Source: Cyclobacteriaceae bacterium
GTDB taxonomy: Bacteria; Bacteroidota; Bacteroidia; Cytophagales; Cyclobacteriaceae
Direction of reading: 5' to 3'
Assembly: GCA_003565295.1 (NCBI GenBank)
Contig: PXCO01000403.1
Coordinates: forward strand, 1-64,000
DNA: 64,000 nt
Shown here: positions 47,251-51,799 of the stretch, piece by piece
Position numbering within the stretch: the first letter of the stretch is position 1
How the letters are laid out: the number at the start of each line of letters is the position of its first letter
The notes under the pieces: model-generated
Databases searched by the model: none
Seen by the model: only the letters and a program-made list of their open reading frames with translations
Told to the model about the DNA's origin: nothing
Translations under genes and position numbers: made by a program

Positions 47251-48468
47251 TTAACCTATAAACTCCTGCTTTCTTTTCTCCCATACTTCCTCAATCTCCA
47301 TTTTTTCGCTGTGCTCCGTGGCCATAAAGTCACGATTGGCCCGGCGTATGTTCATAAAACCCGAAACTTGACCCCAAATAAAGAGAGGAATTTTTGGAAT
47401 AGCTGCCAGTACAGGGCCTGGAGTCCGGTTGATGAATAATATCAATATAAAACCCAATCCAAAAAGGATCATGGCTCCCATCAAAAAGAAACACAATAAG
47501 GGAGCCAAAATAAGGGTGATTAAGAATAACAATGAACTCAATGCCACTAATATGATCATAGGAGGCATAAGTATCACCACAGAGAAAAAAGCCAAGTTCC
47601 AATCCATGGTGAGGATTCCTTGAAAAAAGGCATTCAATGATTCCCTACAATGACGGAAATAACTGTTCAGCCACCGCCCCCTTTGCTTTCCAATCTGCTC
47701 AGATCGACTGATTTTTTCATCGAAAATGATGGCGGAAGCTGCATATGCAATACGTTTCCCTTTTCTTACCAATTGCAACTGCAAGGACTTATCCTCTGAT
47801 ACCACCACTCCTTTTTTCTCCAACTCCCTCATCTCCTTGGCCAGGTTTTCTTTATAGAGGGACCTTTCTATAGACATCCCCGAGCCTGCAATTGTGGAAG
47901 AGGACCCAAGGTAAAACGGGGTAGCTCTTACGGAGTAATCGTAATAATACTCTCCCAGGGCATCCAAAGCCGCGAAAGTGGAATCGATATTTTTTGCAAT
48001 CCTTTTTCCCTGTACCACTTCAAAGCCCTGCGTATGCATTTTTGCCAATCGGGAGAGAAAGTGATGGGGCACCAGGTTGTCTGGGTCAAAAACCACTATA
48101 TGTGTCACCTTTTCTTCCATGTGGCTGAGGGCATGGTGAAGTGAAGCTACCTTGCTATTGAGTGGCCTTGTAGGAAGTAATATCTTCAGATTTTCAGCCT
48201 TTACCTGTATGGGTTGGCCATCACAGGCATCTGCCACAAGATAGATCGCATAGTGGGGATAATCCTGTTTCAATAATGCCCTAACCAAAGGCCATGCTAT
48301 CTCAAGGTCTTTATAAGAGGTAACCACACAGGCAAAATATATGTCATTCCGGGAAGCAATATTTTTCCCTTTTTTTAACCTATGCATAAGTGTGGCCAAA
48401 AGAGCACTTATCAGTGGAAAAAGGAGATAAAATATGCAGGCGTACACCAATACCTTAAGAACTATCAA
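47251..48468 (-). CDS. processive-type glycosyltransferase family 2
   Basis: One N-terminal helix, a GT-A domain and a C-terminal membrane block (~275-355). The DxD-like VVFDPDN, the acceptor region VVSEDKSLQLQL and the QxxRW motif (KQRGRWL) place it with processive GT2 enzymes such as hyaluronan or cellulose-type synthases. It likely polymerises or extends a surface polysaccharide at the inner membrane. The only start in the frame is TTG 48468. It diverges from the next glycosyltransferase by ~105 bp. Confidence 0.85.
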   Translation of the reverse strand: MIVLKVLVYACIFYLLFPLISALLATLMHRLKKGKNIASRNDIYFACVVTSYKDLEIAWPLVRALLKQDYPHYAIYLVADACDGQPIQVKAENLKILLPTRPLNSKVASLHHALSHMEEKVTHIVVFDPDNLVPHHFLSRLAKMHTQGFEVVQGKRIAKNIDSTFAALDALGEYYYDYSVRATPFYLGSSSTIAGSGMSIERSLYKENLAKEMRELEKKGVVVSEDKSLQLQLVRKGKRIAYAASAIIFDEKISRSEQIGKQRGRWLNSYFRHCRESLNAFFQGILTMDWNLAFFSVVILMPPMIILVALSSLLFLITLILAPLLCFFLMGAMILFGLGFILILFINRTPGPVLAAIPKIPLFIWGQVSGFMNIRRANRDFMATEHSEKMEIEEVWEKRKQEFIG

Positions 48469-48573
48469 GGAAATAAAAATTTTAGTTGCAATAATGGGTT
48501 CAAAATAACAAAATTATACTGCTTATTCCCTATTTTTAGCTGATTTTTATTTACTTCATATACAACTTACAGC

Positions 48574-49803
48574 ATGAAGGAATTTAAGGAGCTGCCCTTG
48601 GTTATGATAAGCATGTCTCGATGGGATGGGGATTTTTCTTCTGCTTCATGGTCTTTGGCCAAGACCTTTGCAAAGGAACAACCGGTTATTTATGTGGATT
48701 ATCCCTTTACGATCCTGGACTTTTGGCGGGAAAGGCACCTACCTGGTGTAAAAGCAAGAAAGGAGGCGCTACTATACAAAAAAGGGGCCTTAAAAAGATT
48801 GTCCCAATATCCTGGTGAGCTTTATGCACTCACCCCACCTTTGATGCTACCCGTAAATTGGCTCCCACAAGGTAATATTTACAGGCTCTTTGCTTCTATC
48901 AATGACCACCGCCTTGCTCATTCCATTAATCGCTCTTTAAAGGAACTGGGGTTTGATCAATGTATATTTTTTAATTCATTCAACCCCCTATATCTTTCGC
49001 AACCATATGGGAAAATTAATTACCAGTCTTATATCTACCAATCCAGGGACAATATACGGTGGTTGGAACCTTATTTAAGAAAACATGGAGCCGAAGCGGA
49101 AATTAATGCGATCCAGCAGTCCGATATGAGCATCGCCACGTCCCGCCAACTACAGAAAGAACTCAGTCTACTTTCGGGAAAGGAGGTGGCTTTTGTACCA
49201 AATGCCGCAGACTTCGACAATTTTCAAAAAGCCTTTAGCGATGAACTCCCTGTTCCAGAAGACATTAAGAGCATTCCGTATCCTAAGATAGGCTATACAG
49301 GAAACATTTGCCATAGGTTGGATTATGAGCTGATCCAAGCCATTTGTAAGGCTCATCCTGAAAAAAACATCGTGATGGTAGGACCAAGAAATCATTGGGA
49401 TAGCACTACCATTAATTTGGATGAAATTGATAATTTGCACTTTGTTGGCCCTAAAAGTATAGAGCAACTCCCCTATTACCTCGCCCATTTTGAGGTGCTC
49501 ATTCTTCCATTTTTATGTAATGAGGTGACCAAAAGCATTTATCCCCTCAAAATCAACGAATACCTGGCCTCTGGAAAACCGGTAGTTGCCACTCCCTTTT
49601 CTGAAGACATCAAGGGCTTTAAAGAGGTTATCTTACTGGCAAGCACGAAAAAGGAGTTTATTAAGGCCATTGAAGAAAGCATTTCCCAGGATAGCCCGGA
49701 AAAAAAAGAAGAAAGATATATGACAGCCGCAAGAAACACCTGGGATCACCGGGTGCAACAAATCATAAGTTCACTTGAAAAAACCGGAATATATCAGGGT
49801 TGA
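48574..49803 (+). CDS. glycosyltransferase (GT4/GT1-like)
   Basis: A GT-B fold protein of 409 residues. The C-terminal half has IGYTGNICHRLDYELI, VMVGPRN, HFVGPKSIEQLPYYLAHFEVLILPF and KINEYLASGKPVVATPF, which form the nucleotide-sugar site. It resembles TuaH-like transferases of polysaccharide loci. It is convergent with the sugar transferase gene, with 2 bases between stop codons. Confidence 0.85.
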   Translation: MKEFKELPLVMISMSRWDGDFSSASWSLAKTFAKEQPVIYVDYPFTILDFWRERHLPGVKARKEALLYKKGALKRLSQYPGELYALTPPLMLPVNWLPQGNIYRLFASINDHRLAHSINRSLKELGFDQCIFFNSFNPLYLSQPYGKINYQSYIYQSRDNIRWLEPYLRKHGAEAEINAIQQSDMSIATSRQLQKELSLLSGKEVAFVPNAADFDNFQKAFSDELPVPEDIKSIPYPKIGYTGNICHRLDYELIQAICKAHPEKNIVMVGPRNHWDSTTINLDEIDNLHFVGPKSIEQLPYYLAHFEVLILPFLCNEVTKSIYPLKINEYLASGKPVVATPFSEDIKGFKEVILLASTKKEFIKAIEESISQDSPEKKEERYMTAARNTWDHRVQQIISSLEKTGIYQG

Positions 49804-49805
49804 GA

Positions 49806-51008
49806 TCAGACATTTTCACTTTGAAAAAGTGCGGGAATAGTCCTAAGTATAATCTTGAAATCAAACCATATGCTGAAGTTTTTCACATAATCGTTGTCCA
49901 AACTCAACCGTTGATCTTCGGACATCTCTCCCCTGCCTCTTTTTTCCACCTGCCAAAGCCCTGTAATACCGGCGGGGCCTAAGAAGCGTAAAGAATATTT
50001 ATCCGTAGTGATTTTTTCTGCTTCATATAAGGGCAACGGACGATTCCCAACTAAAGACATATCCCCTTTGAGCACGTTCCATAGTTGGGGCAACTCGTCT
50101 ATACTTGTGTTTCGTATAAACTTGCCCACCTTTGTAACCCGCGGATCATCTTGAATCTTGATAAATGCAGCATCCTTGTTGGTGGCCTTTTGGGCCTTAT
50201 AGATTTTTTCGCATACCATTTGGTTGTCATCATACAGTGGCTGGAGACATCCTCCTCCCGCTTGCTCGCACCATTCACATAACTCCCTTACTGCAATTAC
50301 TGTGGGGGTAGATTTAGAATCTGCCTCATTGCTGTATTGATTCAGGTGTTTTAATTGTTGTAACTTGGCATCGGCCCCTGTATACATGGATCTAAGTTTG
50401 TAAAACTTGAAAATGGTGTAGCCTGTCCCCACCCTGTAAGAATAATAAAATATGGGACCTTTGGATTCCAATCTTATCATTATCCCAATTACCAATAATA
50501 ATGGGGATAAAAGGATCAAAGCCAGACCAGATCCTATGATATCGATCAATCGCTTTAAAATTGGTATTTTATAGGGTTTTAACTCAAAATCAGATCCCCC
50601 CGGCTTTTTAGTAAATGCACTAGCGTGCTTCAGCGTGAAATCAATCCTTTCCCTAACAGGCTCCTTTTTGATTGGGCGAGTAAAATAATCTGTTATCCCG
50701 GCATTTAAACATTCTTTTGCGGCTTTATAATCTACATTGGAAGCAATAAGAAAGAAAGGAATATGTCCAAAACCCAATTCTGATATGGTTTTTTTCAAAG
50801 GCAGCCCATGGACATCCCTTACTGCGGCGGAACTTAGTATGAAATCAGGCTTAATCTTTTTTTTAACTAAAGCATTGTACAGTAATACCCCATTTGTGAA
50901 ATTCACCAGAACACAAATACCTTCCAAAACCTCGCTAACTTCCTGAATTAATTTAACATCCTCAGCCACCAGTACAGCAACAGGTGTTTTTGGTGAATTT
51001 TTTCCCAT
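49806..51008 (-). CDS. initiating sugar transferase with degenerate N-terminal receiver domain
   Basis: Residues ~8-128 look like a response-regulator receiver, but the phospho-acceptor Asp is replaced (PDFILSSAAV, residues 54-63) and the conserved Lys is Arg (FTRPI, Arg111). Residues ~148-395 are a bacterial sugar transferase: one helix (LIDIIGSGLALILLSPLLLV), KFYKLRSM, TKVGKFIRNTSIDELPQLWNV and SLVGNRPLP. This family links the first sugar phosphate to undecaprenyl phosphate. An insertion (~225-282) has Cys244, 247, 254 and 266 (Cx2Cx6Cx11C), a possible metal site. It follows a true response regulator gene with no gap. Confidence 0.85.
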   Translation of the reverse strand: MGKNSPKTPVAVLVAEDVKLIQEVSEVLEGICVLVNFTNGVLLYNALVKKKIKPDFILSSAAVRDVHGLPLKKTISELGFGHIPFFLIASNVDYKAAKECLNAGITDYFTRPIKKEPVRERIDFTLKHASAFTKKPGGSDFELKPYKIPILKRLIDIIGSGLALILLSPLLLVIGIMIRLESKGPIFYYSYRVGTGYTIFKFYKLRSMYTGADAKLQQLKHLNQYSNEADSKSTPTVIAVRELCEWCEQAGGGCLQPLYDDNQMVCEKIYKAQKATNKDAAFIKIQDDPRVTKVGKFIRNTSIDELPQLWNVLKGDMSLVGNRPLPLYEAEKITTDKYSLRFLGPAGITGLWQVEKRGRGEMSEDQRLSLDNDYVKNFSIWFDFKIILRTIPALFQSENV

Positions 51009-51404
51009 TTAGACGAAAGCAATTTTGCCAACTCTTCTTAAAATAGAATTAATCCTCGCTTCCAACTCTTTAGGATTAAAGGGTTTAACCATAAAATCAT
51101 CTGCACCTGCATTTAGGATCTGAATTTTTTTCTCCGACGACTCTGTAGCAGAAAGCATGATTACTGGTATGGAAGAAAAGAATCCGCTGGAATTTAAAAA
51201 CTTCACAAAACTCTCGCCGTCTATTTCTGGCATATTAAGGTCACAAATAATCACATCGGGGATATTTCCTTCCTGCATCCAGGAAATAGCGTCCTCGGGC
51301 TTATTATACACCTTAACCTCAAATTTTTCCTTAAAATAATGCTGGATGATTAGCAAAACTGAAGGTTCGTCATCGATAGCCAAAATTTTTAATTCTGGTT
51401 TCAT
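51009..51404 (-). CDS. single-domain response regulator
   Basis: A receiver domain with all phosphorylation residues: AIDDEPS, the acceptor Asp in VIICDLNMP, Thr in LSATE and Lys in MVKPF. There is no output domain in its 131 residues. Its stop codon abuts the ATG of the sugar transferase gene, so the two are made together. No histidine kinase is in the window. Confidence 0.93.
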   Translation of the reverse strand: MKPELKILAIDDEPSVLLIIQHYFKEKFEVKVYNKPEDAISWMQEGNIPDVIICDLNMPEIDGESFVKFLNSSGFFSSIPVIMLSATESSEKKIQILNAGADDFMVKPFNPKELEARINSILRRVGKIAFV

Positions 51405-51799
51405 AGCTGTTACTTCTCAGGTGACAAAACAATTATATCTTTCAAAGATAAATGAGTTTTTCCATAAATTACTCAGAAAATTAAATTTTCTCAAAATAAA
51501 TCAAAATATCTAGCCCTGAAAATAGTATAGATAGTATTTATTTTAATAAAATACAAAATATATATCATGAAACACGTTTTCACATTCATAAATCGCGGCG
51601 GGATAAAGTGTATACCCTTTTGAATTCAATTCCGAGAGTCATGCTCGATTTCATGCAACCACTTTTTTTGCCTTCAAAAATTCAAACTAAAAATGATTGC
51701 CATTGTAACATTAACCCCCCCATATCAAAAATTTGGATGGATTTATGAAATTTGATTGTACATTTAGGGATTATTAATTTATAAAACCGAAAACCACCT
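51405..51799. other. 395-bp AT-rich intergenic region with a minus-strand promoter element
   Basis: No gene seen. On the minus strand, TATCTTTG (51443-51450) matches TAnnTTTG about 39 bases before the response regulator start and is its likely promoter. The right part should hold the promoter for the NIPSNAP gene. Confidence 0.5.

Follow-up and report, generated by a model that had tools for sequence, protein, structure and literature searches.

A single-domain response regulator encoded beside a pseudo-receiver phosphoglycosyl transferase across Bacteroidota: a possible post-translational switch for polysaccharide initiation

In Myxococcus xanthus, the phosphorylated single-domain regulator EpsW is found near the initiating monotopic phosphoglycosyl transferase (PGT) EpsZ in vivo and raises EpsZ activity in Salmonella (PMC12802240). 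EpsW comes from a polysaccharide locus, is a substrate of DifE (PMC4671073) and exerts its control post-translationally, through an interaction that is favoured by phosphorylation. The pair demonstrates post-translational control of the initiating PGT step by a single-domain receiver, a principle already published (PMC12802240). The EpsW-EpsZ work spans 21 myxobacterial genomes and says nothing of Bacteroidota; its authors propose a reach beyond myxobacteria and cite receiver domains fused to small PGTs. Receivers are among the extra domains found on small monotopic PGTs by O’Toole et al. (2021, PNAS), as that study is cited in PMC12802240. Receivers that cannot be phosphorylated work by pairing with a second regulator in WhiI-BldM of Streptomyces and, by hypothesis, in CmrT-CmrR, and the activation of pseudo-receivers has been called a mystery in a review (PMC12632262). 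A further comparison is PleD, in which a receiver, a degenerate receiver and a GGDEF enzyme follow one another in one polypeptide.

The window analysed here is a stretch of 64,000 nucleotides from a Cyclobacteriaceae bacterium (contig PXCO01000403.1). It contains a response regulator gene followed by a gene that fuses a receiver-like domain to a small PGT. Judging from their sequences, the two genes probably encode one signalling unit, in which phosphorylation of the regulator would lead it to pair with the pseudo-receiver and alter the PGT. The regulator gene and its residues are as follows.

51443-51450, minus strand: TATCTTTG, resembles a Bacteroidota -7 element, 39 nt upstream of the regulator; a weak, short motif
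51009-51404, minus strand: single-domain response regulator (receiver, 131 aa), PF00072 1e-25
51369-51374, minus strand: regulator D11/D12
51240-51242, minus strand: regulator phosphoacceptor D55
51150-51152, minus strand: regulator S85
51084-51086, minus strand: regulator K107
51096-51098 and 51054-51056, minus strand: regulator alpha4-beta5-alpha5 residues D103 and R117

The original prediction described a canonical single-domain receiver with all phosphorylation residues, abutting the transferase gene without a gap, and both points stand. D11, D12, D55, S85 and K107 are all in place, making the regulator phosphorylation-competent as far as its residues can tell, and a DNA-binding domain is absent. 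The open reading frame coordinates are exact: the transferase ATG comes straight after the TAA stop of the regulator, with both genes in one frame. The upstream motif was compared with TAnnTTTG, the consensus of the Bacteroidota -7 element. Scans for sigma-70 promoters and for terminators gave results at chance level, and Rfam returned no match.

The transferase gene has the following parts.

49806-51008, minus strand: pseudo-receiver fused to a small monotopic PGT, 400 aa
50616-50987, minus strand: pseudo-receiver domain, aa 8-131, by fold model, PF00072 near cut-off
50829-50831, minus strand: acceptor position S60 (SS at 59-60)
50676-50678, minus strand: Lys position, R111
50688-50690 and 50646-50648, minus strand: dimer-face residues kept in the pseudo-receiver, D107 and R121
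49809-50567, minus strand: PGT catalytic domain, aa 148-400
50166-50333, minus strand: Cys4 insert, aa 226-281 (C244, C247, C254, C266), predicted metal site
50094-50099, minus strand: catalytic dyad D304-E305

A bacterial sugar transferase had been described as the fusion partner of the receiver-like domain, and PF02397 matches at 6.9e-60. The catalytic core is intact, with the DX12P motif of the re-entrant helix (D156/P169) and the Asp-Glu dyad, and the model of the catalytic domain has the PglC fold (8e37, Z 20.9, 39% identity over 181 residues). Such an enzyme would start a polysaccharide repeat unit by transferring a sugar-1-phosphate to undecaprenyl phosphate. EpsZ is a large PGT that has a four-helix membrane bundle and a cytoplasmic DUF and is active as a dimer, whereas the window transferase is a small PGT core with a pseudo-receiver. 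Its N-terminus has a receiver fold without the four-helix membrane bundle of the large type (WbaP/WcaJ/EpsZ), and the sole long helix before the PGT core in the model is the re-entrant one. The protein falls below the cut-offs for TIGR03025, TIGR03022, TIGR03023 and NF041877, and its NCBIfam EpsZ score is 150 bits against a cut-off of 800; the enzyme itself does not belong to the EpsZ type.

The PF02397 match is split by the Cys4 insert of about 50 aa, which lies between the K204/R206 strand and the DPRVT motif and has the spacing C244-x2-C247-x6-C254-x11-C266. Among 104 relatives with inserts longer than 30 aa, four or five cysteines occur in 78, none in 25 and a single cysteine in 1; this all-or-none pattern suggests a metal site. 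The insert is also present in relatives without any receiver and is thus independent of the pairing: four loci from more distant classes carry it while lacking both the fused receiver and the partner. One other relative has a zinc-ribbon-like CxxC...CxxC at the same place. A search of the open-licence literature for zinc or domain insertions in PGTs returned nothing relevant. If metal is bound, the Cys4 element would be a possible second input to the PGT.

The pseudo-receiver had been described as lacking the acceptor Asp, with SS instead, and as having Arg for the conserved Lys. Ser60 and Arg111 bear this out, and two changes can be added, namely Ala89 at the T/S position and an acidic pair kept in part (AED). 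PF00072 scores 29.2 bits on the transferase N-terminus by hmmscan and 32.4 bits in the genome search, around a cut-off of 30.2. Folded alone, in a model built from 48 relatives, the domain is a (beta-alpha)5 fold (mean pLDDT 92.6, pTM 0.85), and its structure matches are receivers, with DivK at Z 17.9 and 1.7 A over 119 residues. The N-terminal domain is thus predicted to be a receiver fold whose phosphotransfer residues have been lost.

The pairing of the two genes was read in 138 loci from 131 Bacteroidota genomes (26 family codes, 89 genera), a non-random sample picked by transferase score and spread across genera. A search with the transferase only, at E < 1e-40, had given matches in 158/390 genomes of the order and 51/395 of the phylum. 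In 117/138 relatives the transferase gene is preceded on the same strand by a receiver gene, at 30 bp or less in 95 and abutting or overlapping in 36, compared with 0/48 among other PGT genes of the same genome group (48 distinct genes in 50 rows, two having been scored twice; Fisher p 3e-28, ignoring shared ancestry). Because of this contrast, and because the whole 5.6-Mb genome has only 66 receiver matches, the pairing of regulator and transferase is not chance. Co-occurrence across Bacteroidota, which had been proposed as a check, is therefore conserved, and a single-domain receiver is tied genetically to an initiating PGT as in EpsW-EpsZ. In the host draft genome, six further PF02397 genes accompany this PGT, and no receiver lies close to any of them. 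Among named organisms in the collections searched, Pleomorphovibrio marinus (77%) and Lunatibacter salilacus (67%) come closest.

Neighbouring genes in the relatives encode mostly glycosyltransferases, OEP-type outer-membrane proteins, flippases and polymerase-like proteins, as expected for a polysaccharide locus. Histidine kinases make up 6/117 of the neighbouring proteins, with no regular occurrence. In the window, GT2 and GT4 genes (47251-49803) flank the pair; the GT4 gene is convergent with the transferase gene, with 2 bp between the stop codons, and four of the nearest relatives have genes in the same places and directions. One genome has two regulator/transferase pairs in tandem within about 5 kb. 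In eight loci, a partner receiver with a Glu phosphoacceptor (DEESK/EEESK) stands beside a degenerate-receiver PGT; neither protein is then phosphorylatable in the normal way, and perhaps these are locked, phosphomimic-like versions.

The presence of the partner gene goes with the state of the fused receiver. A partner was found in 99/102 relatives with a degenerate fused receiver and in 0/7 with an intact one (Fisher p 4e-9, shared ancestry uncorrected). On the transferase tree, about 5 changes account for the intact fusions, and an independent-pairs test of the exclusion, with only ~5 events, has too few to reach 0.05. A rule of one live phosphosite, either in cis or in trans, appears from these sequences to have held several times. 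The mean identity of the 7 intact fused receivers is 23-37% to partner receivers and 15-19% to pseudo-receivers; 5/7 are clearly partner-like (32-37% vs 17-19%), and the other two, near-identical to each other, are weakly so (23-24 vs 15). They look like cases in which the partner, or a receiver similar to it, has been fused naturally to the PGT. Where the fused domain is lacking, the partner is missing in 11/29 relatives, compared with 3/102 with a pseudo-receiver (Fisher 2.5e-6, ancestry uncorrected). The other 18/29 still keep the partner, so the regulator cannot always dock on the pseudo-receiver, and the partner can probably act without it. Relatives without the domain were scanned for remnants of one; none turned up, and the positive controls were detected. 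Two loci from another class of the phylum combine an intact partner with a fused receiver of intermediate state, in which the acceptor is Glu and the Lys is retained.

Conservation was compared in a set of 102 pseudo-receivers (Neff 97). All five phosphorylation residues occur together in 0/102, and the weighted retention is 26% for D55, 9% for Lys107 and 51% for S/T85, in regulator numbering. The active-site columns rank 48-122 of 122, and the first two ranks are held by an Asp at K-4 and an Arg at K+10 (D or E in 94%, R or K in 89%), which are surface-type residues with about 80-90% conservation. Partner receivers show the reverse order, with the active site at ranks 7-19 and the Asp/Arg pair at ranks 26 and 51. 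The top two columns coincide with the alpha4-beta5-alpha5 salt-bridge pair of OmpR/PhoB receivers, seen across the dimer as Asp103'/Arg117 in BfmR (PMC4888885), Asp97/Arg111 in VanR (PMC8329863) and Asp101/Arg115 in PhoB, where a charge swap rescues partly (PMC4511772). Since the phosphorylation residues drift and the salt-bridge pair is kept, the pseudo-receiver seems to have dropped the chemistry and retained a dimer-face signature. The equivalent pair in RegX3 reportedly stabilises the monomer too.

The retained pair fits a heterodimer with the partner and, being self-complementary, equally fits a homodimer of pseudo-receivers, a point that counts against the heterodimer. The pseudo-receiver might accordingly be a constitutive PGT homodimerisation module that replaces the cytoplasmic dimerising domain of large PGTs such as WbaP, while the regulator acts at another site of the enzyme, perhaps through contact with the catalytic domain or by breaking the homodimer. 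The 18 relatives that keep the regulator without a pseudo-receiver favour such a module, as does the modelling of EpsW on both the accessory and the catalytic domains of EpsZ; small PGTs, however, are reported as functional monomers (PMC12802240). A pure homodimer module would not require a partner, yet the pseudo-receiver strongly predicts one (99/102 vs 18/29). We regard this explanation as unlikely.

Physical contact was sought by joint modelling and by covariation. Because both genes share one frame, the pair could be modelled as one readthrough chain of regulator, TAA as Gln and transferase; transferase-only rows were left out of the alignment, as MAFFT placed their pseudo-receivers onto the regulator. 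The three domains fold well, but the chain yielded no docking that could be used (pTM 0.61, the output having neither PAE nor coordinates). Read as one chain, the pair has the order of PleD, namely receiver, adaptor receiver and enzyme, and PleD gives the first Foldseek matches; PleD, however, carries a different enzyme, and the model of the pair has no rigid superposition on it (TMq 0.25-0.26). Covariation between regulator and pseudo-receiver in 86 pairs showed no enrichment on the alpha4-beta5-alpha5 faces, with 3/25 top pairs against 2.2 expected. The top covarying pairs exceed shuffles and the mirror-tree correlation is 0.69, both of which are expected from shared ancestry.

This lack of a computational signal of interaction, in the joint model without PAE and in covariation, would suit operon mates that make no contact, with the regulator as a phosphate sink or directed at another target and the genes travelling together for the same polysaccharide process. 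Many single-domain receivers are indeed phosphate sinks, such as DifD in Myxococcus (PMC12802240). Such a reading leaves unexplained both the loss of the neighbour where the fused receiver is intact (7/7) and the retained dimer face, and the partner is tied to the PGT rather than to other pathway genes (0/48 other PGTs have one); we consider it improbable. That the pseudo-receiver is a decaying relic or a spacer, with any transferase control being transcriptional, is very improbable, for although its sequence diverges fast (7-52% identity to that of the window) and the domain is missing in 29/138 relatives, its fold is preserved with high confidence (pLDDT 92.6; DivK Z 17.9), its two surface-type residues are ~80-90% conserved over 102 sequences of Neff 97, and the adjoining receiver has no DNA-binding domain.

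The preferred reading is thus a post-translational switch through receiver/pseudo-receiver pairing. This part of the original prediction gains strong indirect support from the conserved pairing, the tight or overlapping genes, the cis/trans exclusion and the kept salt-bridge residues, but covariation is not enriched on the predicted faces. An unlinked histidine kinase would phosphorylate the regulator at D55, and the phosphorylated regulator would then pair with the pseudo-receiver, most likely by the alpha4-beta5-alpha5 faces. Pairing would change the activity or the oligomeric state of the PGT, so that the initiating step of the polysaccharide would be set after translation; the intact receiver-PGT fusions of relatives would exert the same control in cis. 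By analogy with EpsW/EpsZ, activation is more likely than inhibition. The full proposal, that across Bacteroidota an alpha4-beta5-alpha5 heterodimer of phosphorylated regulator and pseudo-receiver switches the first polysaccharide step on a small PGT, is tentative, and we place it slightly below even.

The window pair is apparently a member of a widespread variant that is undescribed in the open-licence literature, with a description elsewhere possible. Apparently new are a small-PGT version spread over the phylum, a pseudo-receiver as adaptor, the exchange between cis and trans, and the all-or-none four-cysteine insert. The proteins of O’Toole et al. likewise join a receiver-type domain to a small PGT. 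As represented in the citing paper, that account apparently does not extend to the receiver's state, a partner gene, the cis/trans pattern or the Cys4 insert, with overlap possible. WhiI-BldM and CmrT-CmrR offer the same principle of a non-phosphorylatable receiver with a partner, but they are DNA-binding transcription regulators, whereas here a membrane enzyme is the output. The hypothesis is directly testable, since the pseudo-receiver acts on an enzyme that can be measured, a likely partner adjoins it in well over 100 loci and the fusions serve as natural controls. If true, it would carry the EpsW/EpsZ principle beyond myxobacteria into a second phylum and into small PGTs; as these are reported to work as monomers, something other than dimer promotion would have to be at work. 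It would also give a general, testable answer to pseudo-receiver activation, with the one-chain versions as natural controls. Since the pairing is kept phylum-wide, surface-sugar production in these bacteria would probably be switched by protein contact and not by gene expression.
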